Of a stretch of DNA of 64,000 nucleotides, positions 51,511-57,473 are shown piece after piece. The notes below the pieces were generated by a model. It had not been told where the DNA came from. It ran no database searches and was given only the letters and a program-made list of their open reading frames with translations. Position 1 is the first letter of the stretch; every line of letters starts with the position of its first letter. This DNA comes from an uncultured Gammaproteobacteria bacterium. Lineage in GTDB: Bacteria > Pseudomonadota > Gammaproteobacteria > Nitrosococcales > Methylophagaceae. The stretch spans positions 186,001 to 250,000 of the forward strand of contig CAJIZI010000001.1 of NCBI GenBank assembly GCA_905181885.1. Direction: 5' to 3'. Both the position numbers and the translations under genes were made by a program.

Positions 51511-51831
51511 CTAAGAGTCTACTATCGCCTCCATGTCTCCTTTTGCTCCTGTATTATCCACCCAGCGGATTGCAATTGTATCACCTACCTGACCACCCGC
51601 TAATTCAAATGAAAAATATGGGTTTTGCGAAGTTCCACTCCCACACTTAATCACTAGCACCTCATTATCATTTCTCCAACAACGAATGTCCTGAATAAAC
51701 TCGGCGTTAACGAGCATATTATCTTTATTTAGTTGCCGTCCTGAATGCATAGGATGAGCAAGTAATAGCCTGATATGTGTATTGTCCGCTCTTACTGTCG
51801 CACGAATACGATCCTCTGCTTTTATCATCAT
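51511..51831 (-). CDS. soxZ: Sulfur-oxidation carrier subunit SoxZ
   Basis: SoxZ pairs with SoxY to form the carrier that holds sulfur intermediates in the periplasmic Sox pathway. The 106-aa protein matches: IRATVRADNTHIRLLLAHPMHS, SGTSQNPYFSFELAGGQVGD, and IRWVDNTGAKGD. No signal peptide is visible (SoxZ travels with SoxY). Its start overlaps the soxY stop, so they are coupled. No soxXA, soxB or soxCD gene is in the window, so the partner pathway is unproven. Confidence 0.9.
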   Translation of the reverse strand: MMIKAEDRIRATVRADNTHIRLLLAHPMHSGRQLNKDNMLVNAEFIQDIRCWRNDNEVLVIKCGSGTSQNPYFSFELAGGQVGDTIAIRWVDNTGAKGDMEAIVDS

Positions 51832-52325
51832 CAGATATCACCCCCAGTATCAACTCTCACATCACGCTTAGTCAGATATAGCTTACCACCCGCTCGAACA
51901 ACAGCTATCACCTGAGACTTTCCTTTGATCAGCTTAATCCTGGTTTTCAATGGTAATAATACATCGGGACTAAAATCCATACTCATTACTAATGGGAAAG
52001 GGTTGTTATCAACTAAAATTGCAAACCGCTCAATATTTTCAAGTTCACTATTGATTTCTACTGAAACCGACCCACCATTCGCTATGCGTTTGGCTGGTTT
52101 TCCAACGGAAAAATTTAACTTTTCACTTGAACTAATATTAGCTTTTCCTAGTAAGGCCAGTAAAACATCTTCCACTGTTTCCGCATTAAAAGCTTTAGTT
52201 GGCCAATGCGCCAGCACACGCTGAGGTAATAATAAACCACTCGTCGCCACCATAGCTATGGTCGATGCTGAAAGTGATTTTTTAATTAATATTCGTCGCT
52301 TTATATCAATCGTTATTTTAGTCAT
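51831..52325 (-). CDS. soxY: SoxY-like sulfur carrier lacking the carrier cysteine
   Basis: Homologue of SoxY, normally the thiol carrier of the Sox complex. The 164-aa protein begins with a Tat-like signal (KRRILIKKSLSAS then a hydrophobic stretch), and the core ends GGKLYLTKRDVRV like SoxY. Normal SoxY finishes GGCGG, whose Cys binds the substrate. Here the end is TGGDI and the whole protein has no cysteine, checked from the nucleotides at the 3' end. It sits between a bepA-like gene (4-nt overlap) and soxZ (coupled). The function is inferred to differ from thiosulfate oxidation. Confidence 0.85.
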   Translation of the reverse strand: MTKITIDIKRRILIKKSLSASTIAMVATSGLLLPQRVLAHWPTKAFNAETVEDVLLALLGKANISSSEKLNFSVGKPAKRIANGGSVSVEINSELENIERFAILVDNNPFPLVMSMDFSPDVLLPLKTRIKLIKGKSQVIAVVRAGGKLYLTKRDVRVDTGGDI

Positions 52326-53785
52326 AACTCTTCCAATTGAAGTAATGTTGCTTCTACATCTTGGAGCCTTGCATTAAATTTAGCCAATTGATATTGACTG
52401 CCTTTTGAAGCTTTTACAGCCAACTTTAATTGACTGACTGACTGTTTTATTCTACCCGCACTATAATAATATTCTGCTAACCAACCATGAGCATCGCTAA
52501 TGTTACCCATATCACCAGAGCTCTGCGCTAATAGCTTATAAATTTGAGACGACTTATTCCCGATCTCTAACTGCCTCAATAATAATTTCCCACCTTGGGC
52601 AGGGAAATCAGACTGCAAAAGTGCCACCACCTGCTTTATTGTTAAAGCTTCATTATTAGGAAATATTTTTTGGTTAGCTTGATAGATATTTAAAGCCTTC
52701 GACACATGACCTCTTGCTATTTCTATATCTGCCATTGCTAACTGATAAGACAGCCTTTCTTCATCCAATACAATTAACTTTTTAAGCTCAGCCATTGCTT
52801 GTCTGTAATCACCCATGGCTGACATCACGAGAGTAAGACCATAGCTCACTGCTTTAATATTTCGGTAGTTACCATCCTCTATCGCAGTCTGGTAATACTG
52901 CTTAAGTTCTGCAAGATTTGTTGTTGACAGAACTCGTAACTTCTCGCGCATCAGATAAAACTGTAAATTATCTCTCCGTTGTGTTTTAAGCCGGTAAGTC
53001 GCTGCTCTACCTCGTGCTTCAGCGATTCGCGATGTTGTCACTGGATGGGTACGCAAAAATTCAGGCACTGCGTTCCCTTTATTAAACCGACTCGACTCCA
53101 GCAGTCGTTCAAAAAAAGTTGGCATTGCCTGGGCATCAAATCCAGACTTGACCAAATTTAACATGCCTAAATTATCAGCTTCAGCTTCATGGGCACGTGT
53201 ATGATCAATTCTCGCTTGGACACCACTAGCTTGCAACACTGTCATTGCTGCAATACCAGCTTGTGGATCAGCAGCTGCAAGTAATAGTGTAGCTATCATT
53301 GCGGCAGCTTTTGGCAAACTGGATTGATTGTTTTTCTCAAAACTACGTATTAGATGTCTTTGGGTCACATGAGAAATTTCATGTGCCAACACTGAAGCCA
53401 ACTCATCTTCTGTCTGGCTAGTCAATAACAAGCCAGTATTAACCCCAATAAACCCACCTGGTGCAGCAAATGCATTAACTCCCCGGTTGGCTACCATGAA
53501 AAATTTGAATGGCAAGCTAGGACGGTTGCTATACATTACTAAACGTTGGCCCAACTTATTCAAATAACTATTTACTTCAGCGTCATCCACTAAATTTACA
53601 GATTGCTGCAAACGCCAAAAATAAGCTTGTCCAATACGATATTCTTGTTGCGGTGAAATTAGAGTCCCCGCACTATCACCAATCTCTGGTAAATCTATAT
53701 CAACAGGGTTTCCATATGAAATCCGCCCTAAAAATAGGGACACAAATATCATAAGAATGTATGTTTTCATAGTGAGTCTAGTCAT
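52322..53785 (-). CDS. bepA: M48 metalloprotease with TPR repeats (BepA/YfgC-like)
   Basis: Periplasmic zinc protease that helps assemble or degrade outer-membrane proteins such as LptD. The protein has 487 aa, with an N-terminal signal (TYILMIFVSLFLGRISYG). The M48 catalytic motif HEISH is in LASVLAHEISHVTQRHLIRS, with the third ligand in ADNLGM, and C-terminal TPR-like helices run to the end. An internal ATG at 53770 (MKTYILMIF) is an alternative start. The soxY gene overlaps its stop by 4 nt, an unusual partner for BepA. Confidence 0.9.
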   Translation of the reverse strand: MTRLTMKTYILMIFVSLFLGRISYGNPVDIDLPEIGDSAGTLISPQQEYRIGQAYFWRLQQSVNLVDDAEVNSYLNKLGQRLVMYSNRPSLPFKFFMVANRGVNAFAAPGGFIGVNTGLLLTSQTEDELASVLAHEISHVTQRHLIRSFEKNNQSSLPKAAAMIATLLLAAADPQAGIAAMTVLQASGVQARIDHTRAHEAEADNLGMLNLVKSGFDAQAMPTFFERLLESSRFNKGNAVPEFLRTHPVTTSRIAEARGRAATYRLKTQRRDNLQFYLMREKLRVLSTTNLAELKQYYQTAIEDGNYRNIKAVSYGLTLVMSAMGDYRQAMAELKKLIVLDEERLSYQLAMADIEIARGHVSKALNIYQANQKIFPNNEALTIKQVVALLQSDFPAQGGKLLLRQLEIGNKSSQIYKLLAQSSGDMGNISDAHGWLAEYYYSAGRIKQSVSQLKLAVKASKGSQYQLAKFNARLQDVEATLLQLEEL

Positions 53786-54000: not shown

Positions 54001-54029
54001 TTGCATACGCTAATGATAATGATTATCAT
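54001..54029 (+). promoter_or_regulatory. Candidate promoter of the Fur-box operon
   Basis: TTGCAT (54001-54006), 17-bp spacer, TATCAT (54024-54029). The -10 overlaps the Fur palindrome, so Fur binding would block RNA polymerase. The 53786-54010 stretch upstream shows no gene. Confidence 0.5.
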
Positions 54030-54031
54030 TA
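54011..54031. promoter_or_regulatory. Perfect Fur box (19-bp core palindrome)
   Basis: AATGATAAT-G-ATTATCATT (54012-54030) is a perfect 9-1-9 inverted repeat, extended by one T/A pair on each side. It closely matches the E. coli Fur consensus, and Fur with Fe2+ would repress the operon below. It is 72 nt before the first start codon. Confidence 0.93.
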
Positions 54032-54102
54032 CGATACTGAGAAGGTTCATTAATACTTCCTCATCACTAACAACCTAAAAGTTAGCATTAAAGGAAAAGA
54101 CT

Positions 54103-54366
54103 ATGAGTGGAAAAATGGGGAATAGATGGAAGCTCCTGGCTGAACACGAACAATGGCTTGTCGAATATGGGACTGATTCTAATATTGTTCGTGTGAACCT
54201 CGGTAACACAACCATGCATCTAAAACGTGATGAATATCAGATATTATGGGGTGTTCTAACCCAAGGCTTAGATGAATTAGAGCGTCTGGAAGATGATCCC
54301 TCCCGTTTGATGGAGCCAAATTTATCAACTGATCTTCAAGCAACTCGACTCAAAACCCGTCATTAA
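54103..54366 (+). CDS. Small unknown protein, first gene of the Fur-box operon
   Basis: An 87-aa soluble protein that I do not recognise. It is rich in charged residues, with TMHLKRDEYQILWGVL and an acidic LDELERLEDDPS tail, and no signal peptide, membrane segment or cysteine. The ATG follows AAAGGAAAAGACT, a good ribosome binding site. It is coupled by position to the S4 paralogue (31-nt gap). Its iron-regulated position is the only functional clue; HemP-like small proteins do not match its sequence. Confidence 0.72.
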   Translation: MSGKMGNRWKLLAEHEQWLVEYGTDSNIVRVNLGNTTMHLKRDEYQILWGVLTQGLDELERLEDDPSRLMEPNLSTDLQATRLKTRH

Positions 54367-54397
54367 AAATATATTAAATACTTAAGAGGATAAAAGT

Positions 54398-55015
54398 ATG
54401 TCAATCAAGATTGGTGCACGTCTAAAAATAATGCGTGCACTTGGTATAGATTTACCAGGCTTATCACGTAAAAGCATAACAAACCGTCCAAATCCACCCG
54501 GCCAGCACGGTCCTAATAGTGGTCGACGTAGAAAGTCTGAATATGGCCTTGCGTTAATGGAAAAGCAAAAGTTACGGTTTAACTATGGCGTAAGTGAACG
54601 TCAATTACGTACGATGATGGTACGTGCTCGCCGTAAAGATGGACCGTCTGGCGAAATCTTACTACAGATGCTGGAATGCAGACTCGACAATGTTGTCTTT
54701 CGTGCTGGATGGGCACCAACTATTCCAGCTGCACGGCAACTTGTAAGCCATTGCCATATATTGCTAAATGGTAAACGCGCAAACATTGCTTCAATTCGTT
54801 TGAAACCAGGAGATGAAGTGAGTGTGCGTAACCGTTCTCGAGCTATGTCAATGGTGGTGAACACATCCATGGTACCTTCCTTAGAAAGACCAGAATGGTT
54901 AAACTATGATGAGACAAAATTTACAGCAAAGATAACAAGGTTACCAGAAGCTGATGAGGTTCCCTTTCCGATAGAAATTCATTTGGTTGTAGAGCTATAC
55001 GCGAAAAGCATGTAA
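54398..55015 (+). CDS. Divergent ribosomal protein S4 paralogue
   Basis: A 205-aa homologue of 30S protein S4. The alignment runs from GARLKIMRALGIDL through PGQHG, YGLALMEKQKLRFNYGVSERQLR, LLQMLECRLDNVVFRAGWAPT and ARQLVSHCHILLNGKRANIAS to EIHLVVELYAKSM. In place of the zinc-type Cys positions near residues 9 and 32 there is no Cys; only two cysteines occur, in the core. It is not in an alpha-operon context but in an operon behind a Fur box, so it probably replaces or supplements the main S4 under iron starvation (inference). The normal rpsD is not in the window. Confidence 0.9.
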   Translation: MSIKIGARLKIMRALGIDLPGLSRKSITNRPNPPGQHGPNSGRRRKSEYGLALMEKQKLRFNYGVSERQLRTMMVRARRKDGPSGEILLQMLECRLDNVVFRAGWAPTIPAARQLVSHCHILLNGKRANIASIRLKPGDEVSVRNRSRAMSMVVNTSMVPSLERPEWLNYDETKFTAKITRLPEADEVPFPIEIHLVVELYAKSM

Positions 55016-55075
55016 ATAGAAGAAAATATTTTTATCAAAACTAAATTCAATCTTTAACATCAGGAGATTTATACA

Positions 55076-55510
55076 ATGAAGGAATTAAATTCGAAATTAG
55101 TCTGTAGCATTTTAAATGAAATAATGGAATATGAATTATCAGGAGTTGTGAGGTATACCCACTCAGCTTTGATGGTGAGTGGTCCAGGCCGGATTCCAAT
55201 AGTTGCATTCCTTAAAGAGCAAGCGTATGAATCACTAAAACATGCAGAGCAGGCTGGAGAGCTAATTGTTGGGCTAGATGGCCACCCGAGCCAAAAGACA
55301 GCACAAGTTAAAGAAACTAATAGACATTCTATTAAGGACATTTTAGAAGAAAGTTTGAATCACGAATTACATGCCTTAGGTTTATATAAAAAACTTTTAG
55401 AAAATGTTACCGATAGATCTATCTATTTAGAGGAATATTCACGCGGGTTGATTGGGCAAGAGGAGCAGCACTCGTTAGAACTTAAAGCGATGTTAAAAGA
55501 TTTCGGATAA
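55076..55510 (+). CDS. Ferritin-like/bacterioferritin-like four-helix protein
   Basis: A 144-aa all-helical protein of the ferritin-like superfamily. Metal-ligand-type residues are visible: E15/E18 in LNEIMEYE, E52 and H56 in YESLKHAEQ, E92 and E97 in EESLNHELHA, and E129-x-x-H132 in GQEEQHSLEL. GGHPS-type text (LDGHPSQ) marks this subgroup. The ExxxH spacing differs from classic bacterioferritin ExxH, so the metal-site geometry is not certain. No heme-binding Met is obvious. Its place behind a Fur box is odd for an iron store, which is usually induced by iron. Confidence 0.86.
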   Translation: MKELNSKLVCSILNEIMEYELSGVVRYTHSALMVSGPGRIPIVAFLKEQAYESLKHAEQAGELIVGLDGHPSQKTAQVKETNRHSIKDILEESLNHELHALGLYKKLLENVTDRSIYLEEYSRGLIGQEEQHSLELKAMLKDFG

Positions 55511-55604
55511 CAGTAGTTAGCCCTAAAAAAGACTATTGAATAACCAGCGTGTTAGTTAACAATAGAATTGAGCCAAATATCGCCTAACGGTGCTCATCAT
55601 TGAA

Positions 55605-55633
55605 CTATGCTGCATTATCGCAGCATAGCTTTT
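55605..55633 (+). terminator. Terminator of the Fur-box operon
   Basis: CTATGCTGC-ATTATC-GCAGCATAG is a perfect 9-bp stem with a 6-nt loop, followed by CTTTT. It is about 95 nt after the ferritin-like stop. Confidence 0.65.
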
Positions 55634-56117: not shown

Positions 56118-56194
56118 TGGTGCCCCCGGCGCGATTCGAACGCACGACCTTCCCCTTAGGAGGGGGACGCTCTATCCAGCTGAGCTACGGGGGC
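56118..56194 (-). tRNA. tRNA-Arg (anticodon CCT)
   Basis: Minus strand, 77 nt including the encoded CCA. The acceptor stem GCCCCCG pairs with CGGGGGC; D-arm GCTC/GAGC; anticodon stem TCCCC/GGGGA enclosing loop CTCCTAA with anticodon CCT reading AGG; T-arm GTGCG-TTCGAAT-CGCGC. All stems pair. E. coli's argW has this anticodon and is a known integration site. The stretch between it and hemH (56195-56459) holds no gene I can support. Confidence 0.97.
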
Positions 56195-56459: not shown

Positions 56460-57473
56460 ATGAATCACCGTGCGGTATTACTTGCGAACCTGGGTTCGCC
56501 TGACCAACCAGATACACCATCGGTCCGTAGGTACCTTGACCAATTTTTGATGGATCCTTATGTTATCCAGCTACCATGGCCATTGCGTCGCTTAATTGTC
56601 AGCTTACTAGTTTTACCCAAGCGTCCTAAAGAGTCTGCAAAGGCATATCAAAGTGTCTGGTTAGATGAAGGTTCTCCGCTCGTTGTTTTTTCTGAACAAT
56701 TGAAAACAGCATTACAAACTGAAGTTAAAATGCCAGTTGGGATTGCCATGCGTTATGGTTCTCCCGATATTGAGACTGAACTACTCAAACTCGCCAGCCA
56801 AGATGGTATCAATGAAATATTATTTATTCCTCTCTATCCACACTTTGCAGAGAGCACAATTACCACGTCGGTAGAACAAGCTAAAGCCGTTATAACAAAG
56901 CATCAGCTGTCAGTTAAGCTCAATGTCGTTTCACCTTTTTACCAACAAGATGATTATATATCGGCACTAGTTGAGAGTGCGCGATCGTATTTAACTCAAC
57001 CATTTGACCACCTCGTTTTTAGTTATCACGGTTTACCTGAGTCACATATTACTAAACTTGATACATCCGGCAGTCATTGCCTAAAAAATGGTGAGTGTTG
57101 CCAGGTAGTCAACCCCGCGCACGACACTTGCTATCGCCATCAAATCATGATGACTACAGAGCGCTTTGTGGAAAAAGCAGGATTATTGGAAACTCAATAC
57201 TCTGTTGCATTTCAATCGAGACTTGGCAGAGCTAAATGGCTAGATCCTAATACAGAAGACAGACTAAAAGAACTAGCGGCAGCCGGAGCAAAAAATATTC
57301 TCGTAATTTGCCCAGCATTTGTTACAGACTGCTTAGAAACTCTTGAAGAAATCGCCATTAGAGGACAAGAAGTCTTCGAAGAAGCGGGTGGCGAAAAATT
57401 AACACTTATTCCTTGCCTAAACCAGCACCCAAAATGGGTAGAAACATTAGCCGCTTGGTGTGTAAACAAATAG
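56460..57473 (+). CDS. hemH: Ferrochelatase
   Basis: Inserts Fe2+ into protoporphyrin IX to make heme. The 337-aa protein starts at ATG 56460 with HRAVLLANLGSPDQPDTPSVRRYL. The catalytic His is in FSYHGLPESH, and the acidic metal-site segment is in TDCLETLEEI; FIPLYPHFAESTITT is also conserved. No heme gene is directly adjacent. It lies close to the Fur-box operon but is separated from it by the tRNA, and no Fur box precedes it. Confidence 0.96.
   Translation: MNHRAVLLANLGSPDQPDTPSVRRYLDQFLMDPYVIQLPWPLRRLIVSLLVLPKRPKESAKAYQSVWLDEGSPLVVFSEQLKTALQTEVKMPVGIAMRYGSPDIETELLKLASQDGINEILFIPLYPHFAESTITTSVEQAKAVITKHQLSVKLNVVSPFYQQDDYISALVESARSYLTQPFDHLVFSYHGLPESHITKLDTSGSHCLKNGECCQVVNPAHDTCYRHQIMMTTERFVEKAGLLETQYSVAFQSRLGRAKWLDPNTEDRLKELAAAGAKNILVICPAFVTDCLETLEEIAIRGQEVFEEAGGEKLTLIPCLNQHPKWVETLAAWCVNK

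Follow-up and report, generated by a model that had tools for sequence, protein, structure and literature searches.

The window, by which we mean the whole stretch of 64,000 nucleotides analysed here, holds three close-set plus-strand genes, as the initial annotation had stated, coding for a protein of 87 aa, a paralogue of the ribosomal protein S4 (uS4) and a ferritin-like protein (Table 1). The 205-aa product of the second gene is identified as S4 by PF00163 (70.6 bits) and PF01479 (56.4 bits), and it matches the NCBIfam S4 equivalog NF003717 with 240 bits over residues 1-203. A possible promoter, overlain by a palindrome of the Fur-box type, precedes the first gene. The hairpin that follows the third had been called a good terminator; it has a T-rich tail, but the terminator scan found one hairpin against a mean of 1.3 in shuffled sequences, which is weak evidence alone. 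The operon is flanked on one side by a divergent M48 peptidase gene, adjoined in turn by the genes of SoxZ and SoxY, and downstream by a tRNA-Arg gene, beyond which lies a ferrochelatase gene.

Table 1. Features of the S4 operon and its surroundings, with positions in the window.
Feature	Position	Strand	Basis or remark
SoxZ and SoxY genes	51511-52325	-	adjoin the M48 peptidase gene
M48 peptidase gene	52322-53785		divergent from the S4 operon
Possible promoter	54001-54029	+	TTGCAT 54001-54006, 17-base spacer, TATCAT 54024-54029
Fur-box palindrome, 10-1-10, 21 bases	54011-54031	none	over most of the spacer and the -10
87-aa protein ORF	54103-54366	+	ORF call; first gene of three
S4 (uS4) paralogue, C- (N-terminal-Cys-free), 205 aa	54398-55015	+	ORF call, Pfam/NCBIfam
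Ferritin-like protein, 144 aa	55076-55510	+	ORF call, PF00210
Terminator-like hairpin, T-rich tail	55605-55628	+	9 pairs; terminator scan
tRNA-Arg (cct)	56118-56194	-	downstream of the S4 operon
Ferrochelatase gene	56460-57473		downstream, beyond tRNA-Arg

The palindrome differs from its own reverse complement at the centre base only, is unique in the window and has a 7-1-7 Fur motif within it, at 54014. It had been described as a perfect 9-1-9 Fur palindrome overlapping a -10 element; on inspection it is slightly better, 10-1-10, and the TATCAT hexamer lies entirely inside it. The putative TTGCAT-N17-TATCAT promoter was not among the predictions of a generic promoter scan of the window, because its -35 matches the consensus at only 3 of 6 positions. 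Genome-wide, Fur-like 13-mers with at most one mismatch are hardly more frequent than in the control (15 against 12), so that the case for a Fur box rests on its conservation and position. Wherever the 87-aa gene was found in the genus (three genomes, own included), the palindrome holds the longest conserved block 5' of it, which makes chance unlikely. Among the proteins of the genome are an unambiguous Fur (PF01475, 149.9 bits) and a second, weaker Fur-family member (37.4 bits). A Fur box lying over the putative promoter and a Fur encoded in the same genome together argue for membership of the operon in the Fur regulon, and Fur is predicted to bind at the palindrome. Elsewhere in the genome AATGATTATCATT has just one exact copy (G000:C1:326294-326306, L149), located between an uncharacterised ORF of 145 aa and a Dak2-domain gene.

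A search of the genome (1.5 Mb in 3 contigs, 99.7% complete) returned two S4 matches. The main S4 is flanked by S11 and rpoA in the alpha operon and carries cysteines 9, 12, 26 and 31 (C-X2-C-X13-C-X4-C), a form hereafter referred to as C+. The window paralogue, only about 39% identical to it, has none of the four and contains cysteines 94 and 119 only (C-). The presence of the alpha-operon copy, with all four cysteines kept, rules out the window S4 as the sole S4 gene, and the paralogue is, as had been claimed, a diverged copy without the N-terminal cysteines. Among S4 classes, C-(IV) has been characterized by Leu or Phe at residue 15, Gly or Pro at residue 21 and a deletion of seven residues (PMC3087516). 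The window S4 has Leu15 and Gly21, and its stretch before PPGQHG is six residues, not seven, shorter than in the main S4, as counted by eye.

The N-terminus of the main S4 aligns without gaps, cysteine matching cysteine, to PDB S4 chains of Thermus thermophilus such as 1fjg. In that organism uS4 is reported to coordinate Fe4S4, while eight other ribosomal proteins hold zinc (PDB 4Y4Y, cited in PMC10450194). The cysteine positions had been called zinc-type in the initial annotation; a metal-type four-Cys site is indeed present in the main S4, but its metal need not be zinc, and the zinc reading is made unlikely by the Fe4S4 reported for the identical motif in Thermus (PMC10450194). A cluster at this motif would also explain why the regulator should be Fur instead of Zur. 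By analogy, the C+ S4 of the present organism would be expected to contain an Fe-S cluster; in the part of that source considered, a cluster in S4 is documented for Thermus only, and a mesophilic C+ S4 could hold zinc instead.

Within the family of the window genome (57 genomes searched, own included) C- S4 occurs in two, the window genome (G000) and G010. The other 29 S4 genes of the family, namely our own main S4 and L118-L145, comprise 10 of the four-Cys kind, 17 with cysteines 9 and 32 and 2 with a single cysteine; the main S4 genes of G000 and G029 belong to the first of these groups. In G010 an S11 match was sought and none was found, so that its alpha operon is not assembled. Among the best 80 of 475 matches in genome_contigs, the closest relatives come from Methylophaga sp. 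HyVt-379 (84%) and from Methylovorus and Methylotenera (60-63%); beyond that level they belong mainly to Rhodocyclales, with one Deltaproteobacteria MAG at 58%. In a tree of 66 S4 rows the window paralogue falls within a group of 29 proteobacterial C- genes, with a support of 92/94 that is below the star level of the tool, and apart from 18 main S4 rows. The type is rare, being present in 4 of 369 genomes of a class sample (E<=1e-50, own included) and in 16 of 399 genomes of the order of Azospira (E<=1e-55). A plasmid origin was considered and rejected: of 72,556 plasmid records, 65 gave S4 matches, all below 60% identity, and none matched the 87-aa protein. C- S4 genes at a greater distance, from a different family within the class (L162, L163, L164), each lie beside a gene that looks by eye like a pseudouridine synthase, two of them also near a dnaX-like gene, and these three loci have neither a Fur-like box (best 10-12 of 19) nor iron neighbours.

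Such a sporadic distribution (3 of 57 family genomes for the 87-aa gene, and the C- S4 counts given above) would suit a spare S4 that came in by horizontal transfer and ended up in an iron operon with no function to perform, an explanation we find barely credible given that the paralogue is under purifying selection and that the box has been retained throughout the genus as well as in several Betaproteobacteria. Between the window and G010 copies dN is 0.11 and dS 1.62, the differences being mainly synonymous. Furthermore, in three genomes (G426, G479 and G526) rpoA directly follows S11 with no S4 between them, so that the C- gene is the only S4 there and the protein type can therefore serve the ribosome; S11 matches were also sought in G422, G435, G439, G440, G579 and G846, where none was found, and the Myxococcota-type genomes G429, G448 and G452-G454 were outside this assessment. 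Low dN relative to dS, together with relatives that work as sole S4, makes the window paralogue most likely a functional S4, which would presumably be incorporated into ribosomes.

Where both forms coexist, the companion is uniform. Among the 33 genomes with the closest C- S4 genes, Myxococcota-type included, 23 have a second S4 of the other type, all 23 with cysteines 9, 12, 26 and 31; in a second sample, 10 of 14 further genomes have a companion, with the four-Cys motif in 10 of 10. The resulting 34 of 34, own included, does not discriminate between readings and is consistent with replacement, since the four-Cys S4 is probably the usual form in these lineages anyway.

S4 is both an accuracy protein and an autogenous translational repressor of the alpha operon in Escherichia coli. 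These roles, and the divergence of the paralogue from the main S4, raise the alternative of a specialised ribosome or an extra-ribosomal regulator, by which altered accuracy or repression of the alpha operon would slow the making of ribosomes under iron stress, metal saving being secondary. We hold this to be quite unlikely, because relatives work as the only S4 and because pairing with a four-Cys S4 better fits the substitution of a metal.

The neighbourhoods of C- S4 genes were scored for ten iron-linked families (hemP, TonB, ExbB, ExbB-like, ExbD, DUF2149, TonB-dependent receptor, FTR1, bacterioferritin and FecI-like sigma), reaching up to 4 kb on each side in the discovery and other C- loci and about 1.5 kb in the second sample and the C+ loci; L006 was left out as the same stretch as L005. 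The C- gene had at least one of them nearby in 16 of 29 discovery loci (15 if L031 is discounted, its only match, to TonB at 7e-5, being doubtful) and in 8 of 14 separately sampled loci; in the controls the figures were 2 of 55 for other C- loci and 0 of 24 for C+ loci, the latter a weak control because they lie in the alpha operon. Since it was mainly the discovery loci that had supplied the families, only the 14-locus sample comes close to independence, and one hemP query of the three had been taken from its locus L166. None of the ten was found in the remaining 13 discovery and 6 second-sample loci, and the sole-S4 loci L173 and L174 are among the eight with an iron neighbour. hemP is a neighbour in 6 discovery and 5 second-sample loci. 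In Methylovorus, S4 is followed by hemP, an 80-aa protein, tonB, exbB and exbD; in L166 and L167 hemP comes immediately after S4, with a receptor-like ORF next in line. L016, L019, L024 and L025 have receptor, ExbB-like and DUF2149 genes ahead of S4, L017 has FTR1 and bacterioferritin near it, and L033 has bacterioferritin together with a FecI-like sigma factor.

These neighbours bear on the question of which metal is spared. In the survey of Chen, Roberts and Luthey-Schulten (2009), 26 of 660 genomes had two or more S4 genes, as a rule one C+ accompanied by one C-(IV) or C-(V), and the metal was assumed to be zinc (PMC3087516). In line with that first description as zinc and non-zinc forms, the C+ S4 might hold zinc and the C- copy spare it, with Fur or a Fur-family protein as the sensor, for which the weaker Fur-family protein of the genome would be a candidate; a ZIP transporter also adjoins S4 in three relatives (L027, L029, L035), although its substrate is ambiguous, zinc or iron. 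Against zinc economy, which we regard as unlikely, are the box, a motif of the Fur type, the hemP, TonB/ExbBD, TonB-dependent receptor, FTR1 and bacterioferritin genes among the neighbours, and the Fe4S4 at the identical motif in Thermus (PMC10450194); moreover, in the part of the 2009 study considered, Zur sites were sought near S4 paralogues and none was found (PMC3087516).

We then assessed the 600 bases upstream of S4, comparing the best Fur-like 19-mer of each with dinucleotide shuffles. At p<=0.01 the shuffles were exceeded in 9 of the 29 paralogue loci, as against 0 of 24 C+ main loci and 0 of 53 other C- loci (two of the 55 being dropped for an upstream region below the minimum length), and at p<=0.05 in 14 of 29, 3 of 24 and 3 of 53, respectively. 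Paralogue scores differed modestly from those of the C+ loci (Mann-Whitney p 0.026) and more strongly from those of the other C- loci (p 9e-8). A matrix built from eight boxes of the Methylophaga and Methylophilaceae type was also run on 27 further genomes, the control for each being the region upstream of its own C+ S4. Paralogue loci scored above the highest of the 27 controls (12.4) in 15 of 27, at a cut picked after the scores had been seen, while the other 12 were no higher than the best control; at low cuts the difference disappears or is reversed (17 paralogues against 23 controls at 4, and 17 against 17 at 6), while in a paired comparison the difference is weak (Wilcoxon p 0.039). At least four of the 12 low scorers (L011, L016, L025 and L168) have receptor, TonB/ExbB or hemP genes upstream of S4, so that the promoter may be further away.

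The clearest contrast was seen among loci of the Methylophilaceae type, five of which (L171, L173, L174, L177 and L178) were so assigned by neighbours and sequence. All six with a C+ S4 (L007, L008, L009, L171, L177 and L178) have a box that matches at 13 or more of 19 positions, each with a TTGAC(T/A)-N17-TATCAT promoter under it, read by eye; none of the three in which C- is the sole S4 has one (L010, L173 and L174; Fisher 0.012, for a grouping of related genomes made after the boxes had been seen). When every decided locus is counted, 15 of 34 with C+ (own included) have such a box against 0 of 3 without, a difference that is not significant. The direction fits the expectation that a gene which is always needed shows no iron switch.

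The ferritin-like protein is the only PF00210 match of the genome (61.3 bits, cut-off 24.5) and falls short of the NCBIfam bfr equivalog cut-off (18.4 bits against 125.55). A conserved three-gene set was considered and rejected as regards this gene: among the loci compared, a relative of the ferritin-like protein is found near S4 in the window genome only, while the pair of the 87-aa protein and S4 is kept in G000 and G010. A ferritin under Fur repression is also unexpected for simple iron sparing. It could be accommodated if the operon served repair or oxidative stress, the cluster-free S4 replacing an S4 with an oxidised cluster and the ferritin-like protein taking up the released iron, and the bacterioferritin near two relatives (L017, L033) is in keeping with this; the ferritin link is not conserved, the box is of the Fur type and the neighbours are mainly uptake genes, and we therefore consider a repair role very unlikely.

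Our analyses make it probable that the operon is an iron-sparing ribosomal switch, in which Fur derepression supplies a cluster-free S4. The housekeeping S4 of the alpha operon would carry, in the motif that binds [4Fe-4S] in Thermus, a cluster of its own; when iron is short, Fe-Fur would leave the palindrome over the -10, its release would allow the operon to be transcribed, the cluster-free paralogue would be built into new 30S subunits, and ribosome assembly would thereby be freed from the need for an Fe-S cluster in S4. The chances seem to us about even for a more general form of this proposal, by which the four-Cys S4 of many bacteria would have a physiological [4Fe-4S], ribosome assembly would depend on iron, and some Proteobacteria would make a Fur-controlled swap to the cluster-free form with a partner of the 87-aa type assisting. 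The initial annotation had proposed a Fur-governed counterpart of the Zur swaps; relatives in Betaproteobacteria, iron-uptake neighbours and the missing box where C- is the sole S4 speak for it, but the zinc reading of the cysteine positions has become unlikely and conservation of the three-gene set was not borne out.

Iron shortage turns on iron-free stand-ins elsewhere, such as the Fur-controlled isozymes encoded by fumC and sodA of Pseudomonas; the stand-in here differs in being a structural part of the ribosome. Zur-controlled zinc-free paralogues are known for S14, L31, L33, L36 and other ribosomal proteins (summarized in PMC3087516), and the window S4 resembles them in being a Cys-free copy outside the usual operon and apparently under a metal-sensing repressor. 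It differs from them in that the protein is S4, the signature is that of Fur, the neighbours of its relatives are often iron-uptake genes and the site holds Fe4S4 in Thermus. With the C+/C-(IV) pairs described in 2009 the two S4 genes of the genome share the placing of C+ in the alpha operon and of a C- copy, putatively C-(IV), outside it, and the window S4 has the residues at 15 and 21; that study, in the part considered, assumed zinc, left regulation open and drew no link to iron (PMC3087516). The Thermus uS4 has the same N-terminal cysteine spacing as our main S4, but no Fur-controlled paralogue is mentioned in the part of the report considered, which reads the site as heat adaptation (PMC10450194).

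No description of Fur-controlled or iron-regulated S4 paralogues was found in the open-access literature, subscription papers being mostly outside the scope of the search, and the main text of a Nitrosomonas Fur paper (PMC3050691) contains neither 'ribosomal' nor 'rpsD'. A metal-free spare ribosomal protein is of a known kind, and it is the combination of metal, regulator and protein that is new. Such spares are known for zinc; if the iron version is true, ribosome composition follows the iron supply, the S4 metal site gains genomic evidence as an iron-sulfur site outside thermophiles, and an answer is offered to the question of 2009 as to what controls C- S4 paralogues. The proposed iron switch is directly testable in the cultivated relatives Methylovorus menthalis and Azospira oryzae.

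The 87-aa protein has no match at E<=1 in Pfam or NCBIfam. It occurs in 3 of the 57 family genomes (G000, G010 and G029, own included), within the genus only; the contig of G029 stops just past the gene. Its structure model, built from 3 sequences, consists of four strands and a helix with a mean pLDDT of 69, and a fold search with it gave no significant match. The 80-aa protein encoded at hemP-tonB loci of Methylophilaceae may be a distant relative, as suggested by hhalign at E 0.065 with four sequences and E 0.0068, probability 5.6%, with seven; BLASTP between the two gave no match, and an HMM of the 87-aa protein run over the collected loci matched the genus only. That it may help the S4 switch is a guess.

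Small ORFs recur at other C- S4 loci. Four S4-adjacent ones were searched, with no Pfam match at the chosen cut and nothing in NCBIfam above the respective cut-off. In many Rhodocyclales loci, ORFs of 88-111 aa lie directly 5' of the C- S4 gene (L021:3623-3958, L014:3704-3976, L166:1222-1488), one such cluster being present in 14 of 30 loci, and further small ORFs are found on the 3' side (e.g. L021:4635-4865). A DUF2325 protein also recurs near the C- S4 gene (L012:5589-6917, L017:1528-2880, L169 and L175).
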